A DNA stretch of 17,052 bases. Source: an uncultured Mediterranea sp. (lineage in GTDB: Bacteria > Bacteroidota > Bacteroidia > Bacteroidales > Bacteroidaceae). Both the position numbers and the translations under genes were made by a program. Under the pieces are notes generated by a model. It saw only the letters and a program-made list of their open reading frames with translations, made no database searches and was not told where the DNA came from. Location of the stretch: contig CAMGAL010000014.1 of NCBI GenBank assembly GCA_946007445.1, positions 1 to 17,052 of the forward strand. Direction: 5' to 3'. This document shows, one piece after another, positions 1-16,679 of the stretch. Every line of letters begins with the position of its first letter. The stretch's first letter is position 1.

Positions 1-1938
1 CCCCGATGTAGCTCGTTCCCCCCGTTTGTAGGACGCAACTCCAAAGCTCCTCTCTTCACCAACCAGCGCAACCTGCTCCGTGAGGGACCTCTCTGTATCT
101 ACGACACCGAATATGAGGAGTGCATCCGTAAAGCCGCACAAGCCGCCATCCAGATATTCCAAGGTACTTCGCCCGGCACTCTGGGTGTACACAATGTAGC
201 CTCCCGTTTCATCTATGACTACAAGCAGTTGTCGTTCTTTCATGTCGATGTGAGCAACGCCGCCCGTAACGGAGTGATAAGCAATGTGCCTTGGATGGAC
301 CGCTACGGCACCCTTTACATCACACTCAGCATTATCCTGCTCGCCCTCCTGACCAGCGGCATCATCTGGTTGGTGCGCATCAACCGCCGCGAAGCCCGTA
401 GGCGTACCCAAGACCAGATTCGACTGGCCTTGCAACAACAGTTAGTGGAGCAGCGCGACGAGCTGGACGATATCTTCCGCTCCATCCGCGACGGACTGAT
501 CACATACGACCGCAATCTGCGTATCCGTGTCGTCAACCGTCCGCTCATAGAGATGCTCCAGCTGGATGATGAGGGTGGGGACGGACAACAATACGAAAAC
601 CTCTTGGCAGGCTCCATTCTGTCGCTGATGAAAGACGGCCAGGAGATCTTGATTGAGTACCTTCAGAAAGCCATGGCCGAACGACGTTCCATTCCTCTGC
701 CCGACAAGGTATTCATGTATGCCCAACGACGTGACCTCCATTTCCCCGTCAAGGGTGAGGTGATACCCATCGACGCTAACGGAGAGGTGAGAGGAGTAGC
801 CCTTGTCTGTCACAACATTTCTGAGGAAGAGACCGAGACTTTGCTCTTCAACATGGCGATGGAGGAGAGCTCCATCTACCCGTGGAAATACGATATTCCT
901 CACGACTGCCTGCTGATTCGCAACAGCACGGGCGAAACGTTCACCTTCCCCCTCAAGCGTCTCAATGTCTTTGTTTGTTCCGAAGACATCAAGCCCTTCC
1001 TCACCTACCTGAATAATTTGCGCAACGGCATCTTGAACCAAGAGCGCATACAGGTGCGCGTGCTGCATCCTTCGAGCGACTCCAATGAATATTTGTGGTG
1101 GGAGTTCCGCAGTACGATTGGCGAAGGTATGCAGGAGAGTGCGCCGTATCAGGTCATGGGTATAGCCCAAGACATTCAGAGCTTCAAGGACCGCGAGGAG
1201 GAGCTCATTCGGATGCGCGACCGTGCCCTGCAGGCCGACAAGCTGAAATCCTCGTTCATGGCCAACATGAGTCACGAAATCCGCACGCCGCTCAATGCCA
1301 TTGTGGGCTTCGCTGGCCTGCTGAAGAACCCTGAGCTCTTCTCGCCGGAGGAGTTCAGCCAGTTCATCGACACCATTGACCACAACTGCACCTTGCTGCT
1401 CGCACTCATCAGCGACGTGCTCGACCTCTCGCGCATCGAGGCCGGCACCATGGCGTTCCAGATAGAGCCTTACAATCTGAACGACATTATCCGCGAAGTG
1501 TATGAGTCCCATCTGGTGGGCCTGCCCGAGGGAGTGGAGCTGCAGATAGCATTGCCCGAGGGCGACGACCTCTTCATTGAAACCGACTTTGTCCGCCTCA
1601 AGCAAGTGCTCAACAACCTGCTCAACAATGCCAAGAAGTTTACCACACAAGGCCATATCCGCGTGGGCTTTGAATGTCCCGACTCGCTTCATGTCGCCCT
1701 CTTTGTGGAAGACACGGGCTGCGGCATCTCCAAGGAGGGGCAGCGCCACATCTTCGAGCGCTTCTACAAGGAAGATTCGTTCGTACAGGGAGCAGGCTTG
1801 GGTCTGAGCATCTGCGAGACCATTGTCGAGCACATGCAGGGTACCATCACCCTTCGCTCTACCGTAGGCGTCGGCTCTTGCTTCACCGTCTGCCTGCCTA
1901 TCCATTCCGCAGTCGCGGGCGATAGGCCTCAGTCGTAA
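1..1938 (+). CDS. Sensor histidine kinase with periplasmic binding-protein-like domain (5' end missing)
   Basis: The reading frame is open from base 1, so the gene begins before the window; the TTG at 229 is only an internal codon. About 645 residues are visible. Bases 1-300 encode the end of a periplasmic domain resembling the ABC_sub_bind family (conserved ending around RFIYDYKQL, 208-231). A membrane helix follows (about 313-375), then a PAS-like region (about 470-830) and a second, weaker PAS-like region (about 840-1180). The kinase core is complete: H-box MSHEIRTPLN with the phosphoacceptor His codon at 1273-1275, N-box NNLLNNAKKF (1609-1641), G1 box DTGCG (1711-1725) and G2 box GAGLGL (1789-1806). 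There is no receiver domain and the protein ends soon after the ATPase domain. It should sit in the inner membrane, sense a periplasmic ligand and phosphorylate a regulator encoded elsewhere. The kinase call is certain; the ligand is unknown. Confidence 0.93.
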   Translation, partial: PRCSSFPPFVGRNSKAPLFTNQRNLLREGPLCIYDTEYEECIRKAAQAAIQIFQGTSPGTLGVHNVASRFIYDYKQLSFFHVDVSNAARNGVISNVPWMDRYGTLYITLSIILLALLTSGIIWLVRINRREARRRTQDQIRLALQQQLVEQRDELDDIFRSIRDGLITYDRNLRIRVVNRPLIEMLQLDDEGGDGQQYENLLAGSILSLMKDGQEILIEYLQKAMAERRSIPLPDKVFMYAQRRDLHFPVKGEVIPIDANGEVRGVALVCHNISEEETETLLFNMAMEESSIYPWKYDIPHDCLLIRNSTGETFTFPLKRLNVFVCSEDIKPFLTYLNNLRNGILNQERIQVRVLHPSSDSNEYLWWEFRSTIGEGMQESAPYQVMGIAQDIQSFKDREEELIRMRDRALQADKLKSSFMANMSHEIRTPLNAIVGFAGLLKNPELFSPEEFSQFIDTIDHNCTLLLALISDVLDLSRIEAGTMAFQIEPYNLNDIIREVYESHLVGLPEGVELQIALPEGDDLFIETDFVRLKQVLNNLLNNAKKFTTQGHIRVGFECPDSLHVALFVEDTGCGISKEGQRHIFERFYKEDSFVQGAGLGLSICETIVEHMQGTITLRSTVGVGSCFTVCLPIHSAVAGDRPQS

Positions 1939-6900: not shown

Positions 6901-8082
6901 ATGAAAAGTAATATGAAACGACTCCCCACCTATATACTCTGCCTGACACTGCTGGCGCTGGATGCCCCACTGAAAGCGCAGGAGCAGCAGGGCGGTTTCT
7001 TCGGTAAACTCAAGAGTGCGCTCCCTACAGAAATCAAGATTGGCACCTACACCTTCAAGGACGGCTCGGTGTACAGCGGCGAACTGAAGGGACGCAAACC
7101 TCACGGCAAAGGCAAGACTATCTGGAAGAACGGCAACAGCTACGACGGCGAGTACGTCAAAGGCAAGCGTCAGGGTTACGGCGTATTCACCTTCCCCGAT
7201 GGCGAGCGTTATGAGGGTCAGTGGTTTCAAGACCAGCAGCACGGCAAGGGCATCTTCTACTTCATGAACAACAACCGTTACGAGGGCATGTGGTATCAAG
7301 ACTACCAGCACGGCAAAGGCATCATGTACTACCACAACGGCGATGTCTATGAGGGCGACTGGGTGAACGACAAGCGCGAAGGCCGAGGCACCTACACCTG
7401 GAAAGACGGGTCCAAGTACGACGGCGAGTGGAAGGACGACCACAAGGAGGGACATGGCATCCAGACGTGGAACAACGGCTCGAAGTACGACGGCGAGTGG
7501 AAAAACAATGTGCCCGAGGGCAAAGGAACATTCGAATATGACAATGGCGACAAGTATGTAGGCGACTGGCACGACAACCTGCAGCACGGCAAGGGCATCT
7601 ACTTCTTCCATTCGGGCGACCGCTATGAGGGCACCTATGTAGAAGGCGAACGCACCGGTGCCGGCATCTACTTCCACGCCAATGGCAATAAGTATGTAGG
7701 CAACTTCAAGAACGGTGAGCAGGATGGTCACGGGGTCTTCACTTGGGCCAACGGAGCTGTCTACGACGGCAACTGGGTGAACAACCAGCGCAGCGGTCAC
7801 GGTAGCTACAAGTGGAACTCGGGCGACTCCTACGAAGGCGAGTGGAAAGACGACAAGTTCAATGGCCAGGGAACGCTCATCCAGACTGACGGTACGAAGT
7901 ACAAAGGCGGCTTTGTGAACGGCCTGCAAGATGGTTCAGGCGTACAAGAAGAGAAGAACGGTAATCGTTTCGAAGGTTTCTTCAAGCAGGGGAAGAAGCA
8001 TGGTCCCTTTGTGGAAACCGACAAGGATGGTAAGGTCGTTCGCAAAGGCAACTACAAAATGGGTCGCCTGGAGCAGAAGTGA
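6901..8082 (+). CDS. Secreted MORN-repeat protein
   Basis: A hydrophobic signal peptide ends in LKA (about residues 24-26; signal peptidase I type, no lipobox cysteine), so the protein should enter the periplasm or beyond. After a short linker (27-57), residues 58-379 are fourteen back-to-back 23-residue MORN repeats of the pattern Y-x-G-x-W/Y-x-x-G/D-x-x-x-G-x-G, with no insertion between them. The fourteenth is degenerate. MORN arrays form long curved beta-sheets that bind proteins or lipids; in bacteria their roles are mostly unknown, and nothing here gives a partner. The in-frame ATG at 6913 gives a tidier signal peptide (MKRLPTYIL...) and sits better relative to the promoter at 6881, so the true start may be 6913. 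It is monocistronic, between the M16 gene and the convergent prs gene. Confidence 0.9.
   Translation: MKSNMKRLPTYILCLTLLALDAPLKAQEQQGGFFGKLKSALPTEIKIGTYTFKDGSVYSGELKGRKPHGKGKTIWKNGNSYDGEYVKGKRQGYGVFTFPDGERYEGQWFQDQQHGKGIFYFMNNNRYEGMWYQDYQHGKGIMYYHNGDVYEGDWVNDKREGRGTYTWKDGSKYDGEWKDDHKEGHGIQTWNNGSKYDGEWKNNVPEGKGTFEYDNGDKYVGDWHDNLQHGKGIYFFHSGDRYEGTYVEGERTGAGIYFHANGNKYVGNFKNGEQDGHGVFTWANGAVYDGNWVNNQRSGHGSYKWNSGDSYEGEWKDDKFNGQGTLIQTDGTKYKGGFVNGLQDGSGVQEEKNGNRFEGFFKQGKKHGPFVETDKDGKVVRKGNYKMGRLEQK
7072..8037 (+). repeat. Fourteen in-frame 69-bp units encoding MORN repeats
   Basis: The units begin at residue 58 of the protein and recur every 69 bases without a single phase break. The fourteenth departs from consensus (Phe for the first Tyr, and GPF in place of the GxG ending). 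Neighbouring units differ at many bases, so this is an old array rather than a recent tandem expansion, although units 5, 6 and 7 share near-identical YDGEW/GSKYDGEW blocks. Confidence 0.92.
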
Positions 8083-9431: not shown

Positions 9432-12400
9432 ATGAAACATCCGATGACCATCCGCAACTGGCTGTATCTGCTACTAATATGCACGTTGACAGCTTGTAGC
9501 AGCCACAGGCAAAGCCGATTGGAACCAGTGGCCGACTCGCTGAACGACCGCTCCTATGCCTGTCGATACAGAGAGCCCGACACGGCCTATGCGGCTGCCT
9601 TGCGGGCGCTGCAGGCATCGGCCGACTATCCCGATGGCGAGGCCGAAGCGCTGAACAACCTGGGATTCTGCGCCTTCATGCAGATGGATTTTGAGGAAGC
9701 GGAGCAGTGTCATCGCAAAGTGTACGACTGTACACACAACGAACTGGAACGGCTGGTGGCCGACGTGGGGCTGATGAAGATATGCCAGCGCACGGCACAG
9801 AACAAGGAGTTCTATGACCATCGTCACGCTGCCCTGCGCCGTATGAAGCGCATAGCCGAGGACAAGGAGCTCTTCACTGATAGCCACCGGCGCCGCAGGT
9901 TGGCCTACGCCCGCTCGGAATTTGCCATCGTATCGGCCATCTACCACTACTACCTACAGCAACGACCTGAAGCTGTGGCGTGCATCCGCCAAGTGGCCGA
10001 CGACCAACTGCTGGCTGCCGACACGGCCCAGTGGCTCTACTACCACTACATTGTCGGGGCTGCAGGACTGACCGGCGACGACACGGACCAAGAAGGAGGT
10101 ACTGAGGCTTCTCTGGAGGAACTGACCCGAACCTTGCTCCGCTCGCTGGAGAGCCGCTACAGCTACTTCGAGGCCAACAGCTTGCAGAGCCTGGCCGGCC
10201 TGTTGCTCGACTCCTCCTGTCGCGAGGCATGGATCCAACGCCACAGACTGCTCCTGCCGTCGCTACAGATGGAGCCGGACTCCCTGCTGCCCCTGCTCAT
10301 GGCTGAGCGTGCCCTGCGCCTCTTCCGTCACTATGACGACCACTATCAGATAGCCAGCACCTATGTGACCATTGCGCGCTACCACAACCAGCACGGCCAC
10401 TACACACAGGCCTTGGACACCCTGCAGCGGGCCCTGGAATGCGTCAATGCCCATCCGCGCACAGCCTATGACTGCCTGTCGCGCATCCGCGAGCAGCTCA
10501 GCGTGACCTATGCAGGGTTGGAGTGGAAAGAGGCCTCCGACTATAACCGCAACATCTACCTCGACATACTCGACGATACGCGCCAGGACAAGGAATTAGA
10601 AAGCCGCTACGATGCCTTGGGACAAGAAGTGGGGCAACTCAACCTGATGCTGGCAACGGTGGGCATCTGTCTGGTGTTGGTGGTGCTCTGCTTCGTGTGG
10701 CTGAACCGCCTATCGCGTGCACGCCATCGGAAGCATCTGCACAGACTCCATCTGCTACTCGATGTCTGCCAGCAAACCACGGCTTCCATCCCCTCGGAGG
10801 CACAGGAGGAAACGGAGATTACGGATGCCCTGCAGCAGCACATCACACCCTTGCTGGAGCAGTTGTTCGGCCAAACAGGCATCCGCCTGCAGGAGGCCAT
10901 GCCTATCTTTCCACACCCGCTGCGCCAGAAGGAGCAGCAAGCCATGCTGGGCGTCATTGAGCCCTACATACGCTGGGCCGTAGAGAATGGACGCACCGTA
11001 ATCAATCTGGGAGAAGAGCAGCGCCAGCTAGAGTCGCAACGCTACCTGCACGAACTGCACATCGCCGACCACAAGCGGCAAAATGTCGTCAAGAAGGCCT
11101 GCATGGCGCTGGTCGACGGCATCCGCCCCTACATCGACCGCATCATCCACGAGGTGCAACAACTGCGCCTGCAGCCCTATGACGAGGCTGTCAGAAAGTC
11201 AAAATATTCATATATTAGTGACTTGACTGACATCATCAATGAATACAACGACATCCTGGCTCTATGGATTAAGATGAGGAAGGGAACACTCAGTCTGAGC
11301 ATTGAGACCTTTGCTCTCAACGAGCTGTTTGAGTTGATTCGCAAGGGAGAGAAGGCCTTTGAAATGAAGCAGGTGACGCTGGAAGTGACATCGACCGATG
11401 CTTTGGTAAAAGCAGATAAATCCCTGACTTTATTCATGATAAACACATTGGCCGACAATGCACGCAAGTACACTCCAGCCGGAGGAAAGGTGCATGTCTA
11501 TGCGCAGTCAACAGAAACCTATGTAGAAATCTCTGTGGCCGACAACGGCTGTGGACTCTCGGCCGAAGACGTAGCACGCATCGTGGACGAGAAGGTTTAC
11601 GACCCTCGAGCCATCGGTTCCGACAGAGACAAGAAAGATGACAATATAGCACAATCGAAAGGTAGTGGATTCGGTCTGATGAATTGCCGCGGCATCATCG
11701 AGAAGTACCGCAAGAGCGGTGAGCTGTTCCAAGTATGCACCTTCCGGGTGGAGAGTGAACCGGGCAGGGGGAGCCGCTTCTACTTCCGTCTGCCTCGTGG
11801 CGTGCAGCGCACGTTGGGGATGCTGTGCCTGTGGCTCTGGCCGCTGACGACACTGACCGCGTGCCATGCTCCATCTGCGTCAGACACTCCCTTGATTCCT
11901 GCAGAGGAGAGTCAGACCGTGGCAGCGGATGCGGACTATGCGCGCTTGCTGGACGCAGCTTCAGCCATTGCCGACAGTGTCTACTACTGCAACATCGACC
12001 GCCGTTACGACGAGTCATTGGTCTATGCCGATTCGGCCATCCGGTTGCTCAACCTGCACTATAGCCGCTATGCCCACTGCCCCGGCAAGCCGATGGTGTT
12101 GGCAGGCTCAGGCACACCGGCCGAAATCGAGTGGTGGAACAGCCTATTCAACTCTGACTTTCATGTGATTCTGGACATCCGAAACGAGTTGTCCGTGGCC
12201 TTCCTGGCCCTGAAGCGATGGGAGGAGTATAGCTACAACAACGAGGCCTATACCCGCCTGTACAAACTGCTGGGAGAGGACCGGTCGCTGGAGGCCTACT
12301 GCCGCCAACTGGAGAACTCGGCCAACAACAAACTGATGGCCCTGTTGCTGGCCATGATGTTGCTGCTGTCGCTGCCCGGAGGCTACTACTTCTTGTACGA

Positions 12401-13688
12401 CCGCAAGCGGATGAAGGCACGCTGGCACCTGGAGCAGGTCTTAGCTACCAATCGGTGTGTGATGGATGCCGTGGCCGACCTCGACTTTACGCAGCGGGAG
12501 GACTCGCCTGAAGAGGTGCTCCACCTCCTGGCGCAGCGAATGGCCGACACCCTGTTTGCCTCGCTGAGCGAACTGACCGACACCGATAGCCTTACCCTTA
12601 TGTTGCGAGACGATGCTGCAGCGCAGGGACAGCAAGCCACCCATGCCCTGCATCCGGCTACTCCCATGCAGTGGCAGCTGCGCGAGGAGCTGGCCCGGCG
12701 CTGCCTCTCCCTTGGCCGGCCCTGTCGCGAAGCAGGCGAAGCTGCTCTTCCGCTGAGGGTGGAGGCACATGACACGAGCTTCTGCATCGGCGTAATGAGC
12801 CTCCATCTGCCTCATGAGGAAAAGGCTGGCGAACAGATTCTGCTGCTGGAGCTGGTGGCACGCTATCTGGCTATGGTGGTCTACAACGCCGGTTTGAAGC
12901 TGCAAGCCAAGTGCCGGGACATTGAGCTGGCGCAGGACGAGACCCGACGCGCCGCGCGAGAGGAGAGCCAGTTGCATGTGCAGAATCTGGTGCTGGACAA
13001 CTGCCTATCCACCATCAAGCACGAGACACTCTACTATCCCAACAAAATCAAGCAACTGGTCGTGCGTCTCACCACGGTGTGCGGACAGGCCGACGAGGAG
13101 CGTTCGCTGCTCGATTCAGTGGGCGAGTTGATCGAGTATTACAAAGGAATATTTACCCTGCTGAGCCGATGCGCCTCACGCCAACTGGAGGAGATTACAT
13201 TCCGCCGCACAGGCGTGGAGGTGGAGACGCTCTTCGCACAGGCGCAGAAGTCCTTCCGCCGCATGGTCAAGGGGCAACCGCTGCAGTTGCAACTGCACCC
13301 TCTGGCGGCAACGATGAGCGGCGATGCCGTGCTGCTGCGCTATCTGTTGGAGAACCTCCTGAGTGAGGCATTGGCAGCCCAGGCAGGCCCAGGCATACTG
13401 AGACTGACGGCCGCGGCTGAGAACAGTTTTGTCCGTATCACCTTCACTGACCCCCGCCGCTCCATGACCCAGAACCAACTCAACGAGCTGTTCTATCCCT
13501 CGCTGGCCCGTATGACGACCACCCGACAGGGCGAACTGCGAGGGACGGAGTTCCTGATATGCAAACAGATTGTGCGCGACCACGATGAGTACGTGGGTCG
13601 CCGCGGCTGCCGCATCGAAGCCACACCTGCCGATGGAGGCGGATTCAGCGTGAGCTTCACCATCCCCTCCAAGTCTAACCCATCCTAA
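9432..13688 (+). CDS. Tandem double sensor kinase (two sensor-plus-kinase modules in one 1418-residue chain)
   Basis: Module 1 has a hydrophobic start with a lipobox-like LTAC (19-22), a helical TPR-like periplasmic region (about 40-395), a membrane helix (404-424), a coiled-coil/DHp-like stretch (about 525-615) and a good HATPase domain: N-box NTLADNARKYT (671-681), DNGCG (704-708) and GSGFGL (744-749). Its H-box position (ALVDGIRPYI, 559-568) has no histidine. Module 2 opens with another hydrophobic stretch and lipobox-like LTAC (808-811), then a helical periplasmic part (about 830-965), a membrane helix (968-988), a GAF-like region (about 1005-1155) and an H-box-like KHETLYYP (1196-1203). 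Its ATPase boxes are eroded: the N-box has Asn1308 but Glu1312, DPRRS replaces DxGxG, and GTEF replaces GxGxG. The layout resembles Bacteroides proteins with DUF5112/DUF5113 domains, as far as I recall them. The partner regulator follows 28 bases downstream. The true start may be 9444. Confidence 0.85.
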   Translation: MKHPMTIRNWLYLLLICTLTACSSHRQSRLEPVADSLNDRSYACRYREPDTAYAAALRALQASADYPDGEAEALNNLGFCAFMQMDFEEAEQCHRKVYDCTHNELERLVADVGLMKICQRTAQNKEFYDHRHAALRRMKRIAEDKELFTDSHRRRRLAYARSEFAIVSAIYHYYLQQRPEAVACIRQVADDQLLAADTAQWLYYHYIVGAAGLTGDDTDQEGGTEASLEELTRTLLRSLESRYSYFEANSLQSLAGLLLDSSCREAWIQRHRLLLPSLQMEPDSLLPLLMAERALRLFRHYDDHYQIASTYVTIARYHNQHGHYTQALDTLQRALECVNAHPRTAYDCLSRIREQLSVTYAGLEWKEASDYNRNIYLDILDDTRQDKELESRYDALGQEVGQLNLMLATVGICLVLVVLCFVWLNRLSRARHRKHLHRLHLLLDVCQQTTASIPSEAQEETEITDALQQHITPLLEQLFGQTGIRLQEAMPIFPHPLRQKEQQAMLGVIEPYIRWAVENGRTVINLGEEQRQLESQRYLHELHIADHKRQNVVKKACMALVDGIRPYIDRIIHEVQQLRLQPYDEAVRKSKYSYISDLTDIINEYNDILALWIKMRKGTLSLSIETFALNELFELIRKGEKAFEMKQVTLEVTSTDALVKADKSLTLFMINTLADNARKYTPAGGKVHVYAQSTETYVEISVADNGCGLSAEDVARIVDEKVYDPRAIGSDRDKKDDNIAQSKGSGFGLMNCRGIIEKYRKSGELFQVCTFRVESEPGRGSRFYFRLPRGVQRTLGMLCLWLWPLTTLTACHAPSASDTPLIPAEESQTVAADADYARLLDAASAIADSVYYCNIDRRYDESLVYADSAIRLLNLHYSRYAHCPGKPMVLAGSGTPAEIEWWNSLFNSDFHVILDIRNELSVAFLALKRWEEYSYNNEAYTRLYKLLGEDRSLEAYCRQLENSANNKLMALLLAMMLLLSLPGGYYFLYDRKRMKARWHLEQVLATNRCVMDAVADLDFTQREDSPEEVLHLLAQRMADTLFASLSELTDTDSLTLMLRDDAAAQGQQATHALHPATPMQWQLREELARRCLSLGRPCREAGEAALPLRVEAHDTSFCIGVMSLHLPHEEKAGEQILLLELVARYLAMVVYNAGLKLQAKCRDIELAQDETRRAAREESQLHVQNLVLDNCLSTIKHETLYYPNKIKQLVVRLTTVCGQADEERSLLDSVGELIEYYKGIFTLLSRCASRQLEEITFRRTGVEVETLFAQAQKSFRRMVKGQPLQLQLHPLAATMSGDAVLLRYLLENLLSEALAAQAGPGILRLTAAAENSFVRITFTDPRRSMTQNQLNELFYPSLARMTTTRQGELRGTEFLICKQIVRDHDEYVGRRGCRIEATPADGGGFSVSFTIPSKSNPS

Positions 13689-13716: not shown

Positions 13717-14448
13717 ATGCAAGAGAACAAGAAATACAAAGTCATCATCGTAGAAGATGCCAAGCTGGAGATGAAGGGTACGGAAGAGATTTTCCGCCAC
13801 GAGATACCCGATGTAGAAGTAATAGGTACAGCCATGACCGAAGCCGAGTTCTGGCCACTGATGGAGCAAGCCGTGCCCGACCTTGTGTTGCTCGACTTGG
13901 GATTGGGCGGCTCGACCACGGTCGGCGTGCAGATTTGCAGTAGGCTGAAGCAGCAATATCCGCAGGTGCACGTGCTCATCTTCACCGGCGAAATTCTCAA
14001 CGAGAAGCTATGGGTCGATGTGCTCGATGCCGGTGCCGACGGCATCATCCTCAAGACCGGTGAACTGCTGACGCAGAGTGACGTGTTGGCCGTGCTCGGA
14101 GGCAAACGGATGGTATTCAACCAACCCATCCTGGAGAAGATTGTGGAACGCTTCCGCCAATCGGTGCTCAACGAGATGCGCCGCCAGGAGGCCATCATCG
14201 ACTACGACATCGACGAGTATGACGAGCGCTTCCTCCGCCACCTCGCCTTGGGCTACACCAAGGAGATGATAGCCGCACTCAGAGGGATGCCTTTTGGCGT
14301 GAAGTCGCTCGAAAAGCGGCAGAATGACTTGATAAACCGCTTCTTCGGCGAAGGCGAACGGGTGGGGGTGAATGCCACCCGACTGGTGGTCCGAGCGCTG
14401 GAGCTACGCATCATCGACATCGACAATCTGGAGCCCGATGAAGAGTAA
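13717..14448 (+). CDS. Response regulator with receiver and divergent LuxR-like DNA-binding domain
   Basis: The receiver (residues 7-125) has the acidic pair Glu13-Asp14, phosphoacceptor Asp60 in LVLLDLGL, Thr90 and Lys113, so it should accept phosphate from the double kinase encoded 28 bases upstream. After a linker rich in charged residues (about 135-170) comes a helix-turn-helix region (171-232) beginning FLRHLALGYTKEMIAALRG, where the LuxR/GerE pattern of leucine-glycine-x-thr/ser-x-x-(E/M)-I-A is recognisable. The recognition-helix region (KSLEKRQNDLINRFF) and the following segment are unlike ordinary NarL-type proteins and somewhat longer. This probably corresponds to what databases call a DUF5932-type regulator, from memory. 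Its stop overlaps the start of the next gene by 11 bases. Target genes are unknown; autoregulation of the operon would be typical. Confidence 0.88.
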   Translation: MQENKKYKVIIVEDAKLEMKGTEEIFRHEIPDVEVIGTAMTEAEFWPLMEQAVPDLVLLDLGLGGSTTVGVQICSRLKQQYPQVHVLIFTGEILNEKLWVDVLDAGADGIILKTGELLTQSDVLAVLGGKRMVFNQPILEKIVERFRQSVLNEMRRQEAIIDYDIDEYDERFLRHLALGYTKEMIAALRGMPFGVKSLEKRQNDLINRFFGEGERVGVNATRLVVRALELRIIDIDNLEPDEE

Positions 14449-15199
14449 TAGGCACCTTTGGCATCCGGCCACGCTCTTCGTTCTATTGTCCCTGCTGACA
14501 GTATGGACTTCGTGGGTGATGAGTGTCTATGGGGTGCACACCACCCATCCCCTGACGCATCTGCCCATGGAGATAGAGAACCTGATGAGTGCCGAAGGGG
14601 TGCGGTGGATGGTACGCCATGCCGTAGACCACTTCCTGCGGTTTGCTCCCGTAGGTCATCTGATCCTGTGGGTGGCTGCCTTGGGACTATGGATGGAGTC
14701 GGGCTGTTGCGATGCCGTCATCCACTACGCTACCCAGACGCGCCAGCGCCGGCGGGCTTTGCTCCATGCAGCCATAGTGGTTGCCCTCTATGTGGGAGTG
14801 ATAGGGGCCGCTACACTCTGTACAGGCGGCATCCTGCGCAGTGCCGATGGTACGCTCCGCCATTCAGCCTTTATGGACGGCTGGCCGATGCTGGCCGCCA
14901 CCATCGTGGGGTTGGCAGGCATGACCTACGGCCTCTCCTCGGGCAGCTACCGCACGGATAGAGATTTGGTAGGCGGTATGCTGCACTATGCCCACCCTCT
15001 CACCGGATACCTGCTGACGGCCTTTGTCGCGGCCCAATGGGTGGCCTGCCTCCACCAGTCGCAGCTCGATATCTATCTGGCGGCGCAATGGGGACTCTAC
15101 CGATTATGCCCCGACCTATTGCATCATCTGCCTCGGATTTTTGCCTATCTGCTCCTCATTTTCCCATTCTGCTTCACAAATCTGAAAAAAAAGCCTTAG
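14438..15199 (+). CDS. Shortened AbgT-like membrane protein
   Basis: This 253-residue protein has about six membrane helices (roughly 11-30, 73-88, 108-130, 149-166, 190-205, 234-247). Two stretches resemble the AbgT (p-aminobenzoyl-glutamate/antibiotic efflux) family: residues 49-90, where NLMSAEGVRWMVRHAVDHF is followed by FAPVGHLILWVAALGLWMESG, and residues 136-200, where DGTLRHSAFMDG, the MTYGLSSGSYRTDRDLV segment and TAFVAAQWVA match the later part of the family. AbgT proteins are about 500 residues; the central region with the first re-entrant hairpin and the final hairpin/helices are absent, so normal transport is doubtful. I use the ATG at 14438, which overlaps the regulator's stop by 11 bases. 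An ATG at 14372 in the same frame would overlap more deeply and add non-hydrophobic residues. Being last in the kinase-regulator operon, it may be a sensor partner or an output. The family call is from memory of motifs. Confidence 0.6.
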   Translation: MKSNRHLWHPATLFVLLSLLTVWTSWVMSVYGVHTTHPLTHLPMEIENLMSAEGVRWMVRHAVDHFLRFAPVGHLILWVAALGLWMESGCCDAVIHYATQTRQRRRALLHAAIVVALYVGVIGAATLCTGGILRSADGTLRHSAFMDGWPMLAATIVGLAGMTYGLSSGSYRTDRDLVGGMLHYAHPLTGYLLTAFVAAQWVACLHQSQLDIYLAAQWGLYRLCPDLLHHLPRIFAYLLLIFPFCFTNLKKKP

Positions 15200-15250: not shown

Positions 15251-15324
<74 letters not shown>

Positions 15325-15325
15325 C

Positions 15326-15539: not shown

Positions 15540-16679
15540 ATGAAGTACCCAACAGTCAGACTGGTGTTCGACCGAAAGAAGGTGGCATCAGACAAGAAAA
15601 AAGGGCTTGTACAGATTGAGGTCACAAGCCAGGGAAAGAGAAAGTGGATTGGAACCACCGTGAAGCTTTATGCCAATCAGTGGGACGACCGAAAGCATGT
15701 GGTGCGCAGCAACGAGTGCATCGAGCAGAACGCCATCATCGACGCGATGATGAAACGAGTCAATGAGTTCATCGCCGGACTGGCCAAGAGCGGAGTGGCC
15801 TTCGACTTCGAGAAGCTGGACGCATTTGTCAGCTCCATGTCAGAATCATCCTCCTTCGTGGAGTTCGTCAGACGTAGGATAGAAGAGCGCACAGACATTG
15901 AGGAGAGCACCCGGAAGCAGCACCGCACGCTGCTACAGTCGCTCGAAGAGTTCGGACGCATCAACTACATGAACGACCTGACGAAGCAAAACATCGTGCT
16001 CTATGACGAATTTCTGCACAGCAAGGGAATCACCCAACCGACCATCTACAACTACCACAAGCGGCTGAAGCGGTACATACACGAGGCCATGAAGTTCGAG
16101 CTGATGGACGGCGACCCCTATGTGGGGATGCACTTCGAACGCGGCAAGTTCGAGAAGCGCAAGTACCTCACGATGGACGAGTTGCGGAGAGTCATCACGT
16201 GCCCCATCAACAGCGAGCCCGTCAGCAGAGTCAGAGACCTCTTCCTCTTCCAGTGCTACACCGGGTTGGCGTATGCCGACTTCGCGAAGTTTGACTTCAC
16301 CAAAGACGTGGAATTCAGGAATGGTCGCTACGTCGTGGCCGACCGCCGGCGAAAGACCAACGAAGACTACACCATCGTGCTGCTGCATCCGGCCATCGAG
16401 ATACTGGAGAAGTACGGGCATGTGCTGCCCGTCATCTCGCTTCAGAAATACAACGCCTCGCTCAAGGTGCTGGCTCAATATGCCCGGATAGACAAGGACC
16501 TGACCAGCCACATGGCTCGACATACCTTCGCTGTATTCGCGCTGAATAACGGCATCCCCATTGAGATAGTATCCAAGATGTTGGGCCATGCCAATATACG
16601 CACCACGCAGATTTACGCCAAGGTGCTCAACTCCGAGGTAGAACGCTCGTTCGACAAGCTGGCCGACGTCTTCAAATAG
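15540..16679 (+). CDS. Tyrosine recombinase/integrase, Bacteroidetes type lacking Arg I
   Basis: The 379-residue protein should insert and excise the element at tRNA-Arg. Residues 1-95 form an arm-binding domain (a short beta-rich region starting KYPTVRLVFDRKK); 103-185 are a SAM-like core-binding domain; 205-379 are catalytic. The active site has Lys272 (RRKTNEDY), His324-x-x-Arg327 (HMARHTF), His350 (GHANIRTTQ) and nucleophile Tyr359. The first catalytic arginine, normally in TGLR, is replaced by Ala244 (YTGLAYADF), as in IntDOT-like Bacteroides integrases. ATG at 15540 follows TTTTAAGCC; no -7 element is evident. A strong hairpin lies about 34 bases beyond the stop. Confidence 0.95.
   Translation: MKYPTVRLVFDRKKVASDKKKGLVQIEVTSQGKRKWIGTTVKLYANQWDDRKHVVRSNECIEQNAIIDAMMKRVNEFIAGLAKSGVAFDFEKLDAFVSSMSESSSFVEFVRRRIEERTDIEESTRKQHRTLLQSLEEFGRINYMNDLTKQNIVLYDEFLHSKGITQPTIYNYHKRLKRYIHEAMKFELMDGDPYVGMHFERGKFEKRKYLTMDELRRVITCPINSEPVSRVRDLFLFQCYTGLAYADFAKFDFTKDVEFRNGRYVVADRRRKTNEDYTIVLLHPAIEILEKYGHVLPVISLQKYNASLKVLAQYARIDKDLTSHMARHTFAVFALNNGIPIEIVSKMLGHANIRTTQIYAKVLNSEVERSFDKLADVFK

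Follow-up and report, generated by a model that had tools for sequence, protein, structure and literature searches.

Two homologous kinase modules in one reading frame

The window analyzed here is a 17,052-nucleotide stretch of DNA from an uncultured Mediterranea sp. (family Bacteroidaceae; contig CAMGAL010000014.1), and all nucleotide positions below refer to it. At 9432–13688 on the + strand lies an open reading frame (ORF) whose 1,418 codons are read through with no stop inside, followed by the gene for a response regulator with REC and DUF5932 domains. The ORF encodes two receptor-kinase modules, each with a sensor region, a DHp domain and a catalytic and ATP-binding (CA) domain, termed DHp1 and CA1 in module 1 and DHp2 and CA2 in module 2. 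Pfam matches within this one ORF to DUF5112 (298.9 bits; cut-off 29.4) and DUF5113 (286.1 bits; cut-off 27.1) place it in the DUF5112 + DUF5113 sensor kinase family. In the whole protein HATPase_c was matched at two places; when the halves were read separately, it was matched at the cytosolic end of both, with 66 bits in module 1 and 43 bits in module 2. Pfam gave no HisKA match in the whole protein or in either half alone.

Profile comparison shows that the 1,418-residue ORF contains one receptor-kinase unit duplicated in tandem. Residues 290–795 and 825–1418 aligned co-linearly over 471 columns (hhalign, profile–profile; E 1.3e-32). Direct BLASTP between the halves was weak (E 0.015), so the homology of the modules is clear only from the profiles. 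The DUF5113 profile matched both residues 301–425 and residues 836–991, which makes the membrane-proximal parts homologous, while Pfam confined DUF5112 to module 1. An earlier sequence-only reading of the window had described the periplasmic regions of the halves as different, which holds for DUF5112 and fails for DUF5113. At the junction, a kinase-like end (FRLP) is followed at once by the signal-peptide-like start of a second receptor, a layout for which in-frame joining of two tandem copies would be the simplest origin. No clear unduplicated ancestral relative was found, the few hits outside the family not being followed further, and no unfused homologue was seen. Profile PF17140 scored above cut-off in 7/393 genomes of the order, and PF19355 in 8/395 genomes of the class.

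Complementary loss of catalytic parts across the family

In the window's protein, module 1 carries N671..N676, D704-N-G706-C-G708 and G744-S-G746-F-G748-L, the N, G1 and G2 boxes of an ATP site. Module 2 carries K1196-H1197-E1198-T-L-Y-Y-P1203, together with E1312, D1340-P-R-R-S1344 and G1371-T-E-F1374 in place of the ATP-site motifs. These residues agree with the sequence-only reading, which had named KHETLYYP (1196–1203) as a plausible phosphoacceptor site and had recognized Glu1312, DPRRS and GTEF as substitutes in module 2. It had also seen Val-Asp (561–562) where the H-box of module 1 should be; the loss itself stands, and its position moves, as hhalign pairs D562-G563 with H1197-E1198. 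A second candidate for a module 1 H-box, His-Glu at 573–574, was rejected: it lies 11 residues beyond the position that pairs with His1197, and 113/120 close sequences have Asn at 573.

Conservation was assessed in an alignment of 288 sequences, comprising 120 close sequences (the window's own included), 100 from diverse genera and 68 out of 81 additional loci. Compared over the four kinase domains at 80% identity, these amount to an effective number of 144. In module 2, K1196, H1197, E1198, Y1202 and P1203 were each present in 288/288. The same complete conservation was found in module 1 for T672, N676, K679, D704, G706, G708, G746 and G748, with N671 in 287/288 and G744 in 281/288. The check that the sequence-only reading had called for, conservation of His1197 separately from that of Asn676 and Asp704, therefore came out in its favor. 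Position 562, aligned with His1197, is drifting (N 170, T 40, Y 20, A 11, D 10, S 7 and others); His occurs there in 6/288, in none of them followed by Glu or Asp. Position 1312 varies likewise (E 210, A 22, L 18, G 5, D 5, Q 4 and others), and neither of the two sequences with Asn there has DxG. Either a conserved His in module 1 or an intact ATPase in module 2 would have contradicted the earlier proposal; His-Glu/Asp at the first site and Asn1312 with DxG at the second were each found in 0/288.

The domains also differed in their invariant columns among the 100 diverse sequences, which numbered 24/173 in CA1, 9/88 in DHp2, 2/87 in DHp1 and 0/155 in CA2. One of these sequences (L096) lacks the N-box region of CA2 in the alignment; with it removed and the window's protein added, CA2 had a single invariant column, F1354. 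As a control, simple patterns were applied to 34 further kinases, of which 7 belong to the same genome and 27 were among the best hits in the order's other families; 28 had the H-box, N, G1 and G2 in a single module, the remaining six each missing one or two patterns. That arrangement, an H-box His with N, G1 and G2 boxes in the same module as in an orthodox histidine kinase, occurred in neither module of any of the 288 sequences; phosphoacceptor and ATP site are instead conserved in different partners, as in a split histidine kinase. In 22 short homologues (<1,260 residues, for example L092–L109), most of both GAF-position regions (~440–500 and ~1020–1130) is gone together, and the division of labor between the modules is retained. 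At the level of aligned residues, the complementary loss of catalytic parts is thus a conserved trait of the family.

Linkage to a response regulator and distribution

In 97/100 diverse loci the REC-DUF5932 regulator follows 3′ of the kinase, on its strand, with gaps of −130 to 478 bases; its frame is in two pieces in one locus (L143). Among the diverse loci without it, L120 stops at a contig end, and tblastn found no regulator nearby in L096 and L108. It also lies 3′ of the kinase in 79/81 further loci; in L294 the sequence stops just past the kinase, and in L257 the ~2.2 kb 3′ of the kinase gave no regulator match. In the aligned regulators, the receiver residues E13, D14 and D60 are present in 97/98, and T90 and K113 in 98/98, so that a cognate regulator with an intact receiver accompanies the kinase, as in a two-component system. 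Relatives at E <= 1e-60 were found in 304/399 sampled genomes of the same family and in 25/30 of its genera; the gene is also present in records under the names Bacteroides fragilis and Phocaeicola vulgatus ATCC 8482.

A probable split histidine kinase encoded by one gene

With the ATP site only in the first half and the phosphoacceptor His only in the second, the halves probably work only together. We consider it probable, from the conserved residues, that the ORF encodes an obligate split histidine kinase in which CA1 would phosphorylate His1197, from which the phosphate would go to Asp60 of the regulator. The earlier proposal that the first half acts on the second gains support in this respect, since one phosphoacceptor and one ATPase are kept and they sit in different halves. 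In the scheme we propose, a complete TPR-receptor kinase gene would have been duplicated in tandem and its copies joined in frame. Module 1 has lost its phosphoacceptor and kept its ATP site, and module 2 the reverse, as the alignment shows. CA1 would bind ATP and phosphorylate His1197 on DHp2, and the phosphate would then pass to Asp60 of the neighboring regulator, as linkage and the intact REC domain suggest. The DUF5112 and DUF5113 sensors may gate the meeting of CA1 and DHp2, giving two periplasmic inputs and one output. Since the stretch between the halves looks like a signal peptide that could be cleaved, two chains made in equal amounts may form the mature enzyme as a heteromer.

Several observations weigh against this interpretation. 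Mean-field coevolution analysis (effective number 144, 499 columns) enriched intra-domain pairs just 0.9–1.9 fold in the top 100 to 1,000 pairs, a signal too weak to show a CA1–DHp2 contact. DHp1–DHp2 pairs were in register in 6/25 (P 0.31), not beyond expectation. The top 100 pairs held 27 cross-module versus 10 same-module CA–DHp pairs, which we do not count as evidence. CA2 also keeps conserved residues (R1382 in 287, H1384 in 277, G1392 in 284 and C1393 in 278 of 288), so the domain retained some role after losing its ATP site, and H1384 (13581–13583) is a second conserved His within this degenerate domain. The H-box is itself unusual, with 6 residues from His to Pro compared with 5 in HisKA, and Pfam gave no HisKA match. 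Separately, position +4 from His1197 is Tyr in 278/288, where the phosphatase motif of HisKA has Thr/Asn, which may mean that the regulator is dephosphorylated in another way.

Characterized systems offer partial parallels. Excerpts of PMC3591291 describe CheA3/CheA4 of Rhodobacter sphaeroides as a biochemically characterized split kinase of which neither protein autophosphorylates separately, and excerpts of PMC7656254 describe Hik36/Hik43 of Synechocystis as a split kinase. As in those pairs, ATPase and phosphorylated His would reside in different partners; unlike those pairs, which are separate CheA-type proteins, the partners here are mutually homologous DHp–CA membrane receptor halves of one ORF. 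According to extracts of PMC3018481, TodS and the Red system have two transmitter domains, one of which may serve as a phosphotransfer domain, and non-hybrid kinases with two transmitters made up 2/15704 in a survey. The phosphorelays of TodS/Red use intervening receivers, whereas the present chain has no receiver and its losses are complementary. DUF5112, DUF5113 and DUF5932 are named in Pfam as families of unknown function, and no mention of them was found in the open-licence PubMed Central literature; among the matches listed from the same literature for tandem, double, fused or split kinases, none on the DUF5112/DUF5113 family was seen. Within that literature, we found no earlier description of complementary catalysis or of an internal signal-like segment in these kinases.

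A signal-peptide-like segment between the halves

Sequence patterns suggest that segment 793–811, between the halves, resembles a cleavable signal peptide and not an ordinary transmembrane (TM) helix. The window's own segment combines a short h-region with the lipobox TLTAC. In the close set, Cys811 is kept in 115/120 sequences, with S/A/G at −1 in 117/120, amid neighboring residues that drift. The lipobox pattern was found in 97/120 internal segments compared with 15 in shuffled internal segments and 0/120 in each of the control helices, TM1 and TM3 read outward (reversed). Among the diverse set, 67/100 internal segments have a lipobox, an AxA-Q or an AxA-polar end, versus 36 in shuffles and 14/100 in each control helix; for comparison, 73/98 N-terminal signals fit cleavage patterns (shuffles 40). 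AxA followed by a polar residue accounts for 54/100 (shuffles 26; control helices 13 and 10), and AxA-Q ends for 21/100 (shuffles 7), A-Q being a signal-peptidase I pattern of Bacteroidetes according to excerpts of PMC5837995. The median longest uncharged run is 17 residues in the internal segment (188/220 measured), close to that of the N-terminal signal (18; 178/220) and shorter than those of TM1 (20) and TM3 (23).

With these features, the 'within one chain' of the earlier proposal becomes less certain than it was claimed to be, as the mature product may be two chains. In this refinement of the split-kinase interpretation, which does not oppose it, the chain would be cut by signal peptidase II at Cys811 in members of the Bacteroides type and by signal peptidase I at AxA in the others. 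One product would be an ATPase half anchored at its C terminus by the signal peptide, the other a histidine half processed on its own, and the two would form a heteromeric kinase. From the patterns above, we regard such a cut as evenly balanced between true and false. That the two complementary half-kinases would then assemble into an obligate heteromer reading two periplasmic signals we put a shade lower, just short of even. Several counts run the other way: the lipobox occurs in just 20/100 diverse segments and 33/100 fit none of the three cleavage patterns, and in the close set AxA alone is rarer than in shuffles (39 versus 54.5), although a lipobox acting as the working motif in that set would lead one to expect this. 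No unfused homologue appeared, so the fused state seems to be maintained, and a cut after a cytosolic domain of ~370 residues would, in our judgment, be unusual. A literature search (open-licence PubMed Central) for precedent of internal signal-peptide cleavage gave nothing relevant.

Two predicted structures bear on the same question and are in partial agreement. An AlphaFold2 model of window residues 398–1418 (predicted local distance difference test (pLDDT) 88.3; predicted template modeling score 0.67) shows the segment as a short helix (~794–801) followed by residues 805–833 at pLDDT <50. In a second model, of a full-length short homologue (L109; pLDDT 84.7; predicted template modeling score 0.54), the internal helix spans 11 residues, similar to the 13 of the N-terminal signal, against 47 and 39 for the helices that contain TM1 and TM3. 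The internal segment is thus a short helix in both models, as is the N-terminal signal in the full-length one. Low confidence follows all four segments of the second model, true TM1 and TM3 included, and helix length alone sets the internal segment apart there.

Alternatively, the segment would remain a membrane anchor, with DHp1 and DHp2 pairing in one intact chain as a pseudo-heterodimer, much as mammalian adenylyl cyclases join two catalytic halves. The ORF is unbroken in 100/100 diverse copies and in 78/81 other loci, with contig ends truncating the last 3; stops within matched stretches of the family-wide search lay at the C-terminal end in all 8 such loci checked. In structural searches with the window model, some single kinase chains aligned across the modules (5idj, model residues 148–1019, 222 residues, root-mean-square deviation (rmsd) 3.0; 8a3u, 142–1014, 227 residues, rmsd 5.8; ranges give the first and last aligned residue only), suggesting that DHp1 and module 2 are packed as one kinase in the predicted fold. 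The second model yielded few rows spanning the modules (6lgq_C, 310–1005, 149 residues; 6qrj, 309–779, 217 residues), and the short segment with its cleavage motifs forms no full TM helix in either model. We consider an uncleaved chain possible and somewhat less probable than a cleaved one. The idea that the second half is translated on its own, starting inside the gene, was rejected, as no single aligned position carries a start (ATG in 62/98, at ten offsets, <=21 at any).

Less compatible with the data is a repurposed pseudokinase. Module 1 would then be a GHKL ATPase that switches conformation, and a different kinase would charge module 2, which would serve for phosphotransfer or as a phosphatase; DivL-type networks and TodS/Red-type phosphorelays are comparable. 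DivL (4q20) is among the top structural matches of CA1 in both models, and an ordinary, truncated kinase lies 7.5 kb off at 1–1938. The second transmitter domains of Red and TodST, according to the same extracts of PMC3018481, act as phosphotransfer domains. Mutual complementation is the simpler account of an ATP site that stays invariant without a His of its own, and of ATP-site loss only where the His is kept, and we judge the repurposed pseudokinase unlikely. The DivL/RetS-type pseudokinases neighboring CA1 in structure have a kinase fold with altered catalysis and are separate regulators of another kinase, without a fused complementary half. Decay, chimerism or an assembly artefact peculiar to the window's genome, whose assembly is fragmented (394 contigs, 73% complete), was rejected as extremely improbable, given the same architecture and residues in 287 other sequences and relatives in 25/30 genera.

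If the split-kinase interpretation is right, this double half-kinase, widespread among the genomes sampled in the family, is a naturally occurring example where the only chemistry possible seems to be trans-phosphorylation from one kinase module to a different one. How kinase dimers couple two sensors to one active site, a long-standing question, becomes directly testable by single substitutions. Modeling in excerpts of PMC3591291 predicts switch-like responses of split kinases under stated conditions. Should the linker be cut, signal-peptidase processing would be an added way to make matched subunits of a signaling complex.

Features of the locus and neighboring genes

Table 1. Features of the double half-kinase gene and its regulator (window positions; residues of the protein in brackets)
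Feature	Positions	Strand	Basis
Double half-kinase gene, 1,418 residues	9432..13688	+	Sequence, Pfam; without internal stop
N-terminal signal peptide with lipobox LTA-C22	9432..9497	+	Sequence
DUF5112, TPR-type sensor of module 1 (34–299)	9531..10328	+	Pfam, 298.9 bits; periplasmic by predicted topology
DUF5113-type membrane-proximal region, first copy, and TM1 (301–425)	10332..10706	+	PF17140 match; TM1 405–423 by hydropathy
GAF-position region of module 1 (440–525)	10749..11006	+	Alignment coverage; mostly absent from short forms; no GAF match in Pfam
DHp1 (536–622), phosphoacceptor lost: D562-G563 replaces His-Glu (codons 11115–11120)	11037..11297	+	Alignments
CA1 (623–795), intact ATP site: N676 (11457–11459), D704/G706/G708 (11541–11555), G744/G746/G748 (11661–11675)	11298..11816	+	
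Internal signal-peptide-like segment (793–811), lipobox Cys811 codon 11862–11864	11808..11864	+	Motif counts; short helix in both models
DUF5113 (836–991) including TM3, module 2 sensor	11937..12404	+	Pfam, 286.1 bits; periplasmic and TM by predicted topology
GAF-like region of module 2 (1010–1150)	12459..12881	+	Weak GAF match (E 0.1, below cut-off); coverage; mostly absent from short forms
DHp2 (1170–1257) with KHETLYYP; His1197 codon 13020–13022	12939..13202	+	His1197 288/288
CA2 (1258–1412), degenerate ATP site: E1312, DPRRS 1340–1344, GTEF 1371–1374	13203..13667	+	HATPase_c, 43 bits; catalytic residues absent
Response regulator REC (Asp60 codon 13894–13896) and DUF5932	13717..14448	+	Pfam; linkage

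The kinase at the start of the window (1–1938, + strand; L006) is a PAS sensor kinase cut by the window start. Its HEIRTP H-box and its ATP-site patterns are intact, which makes it an ordinary neighbor of the double half-kinase. By eye, the ORF at 6901–8082 (+ strand) encodes a protein with a signal peptide and many MORN-like repeats. An ORF at 14372–15199 (+ strand) overlaps the end of the regulator; its best stretch matches only the middle of the AbgT transporter profile (249–367 of 502), and it may be a partial or divergent AbgT relative. Farther on, a tRNA-Arg (15251–15325, + strand) is followed by an ORF at 15540–16679 (+ strand) that by eye resembles a tyrosine recombinase, and the two may mark the edge of an integrated element.

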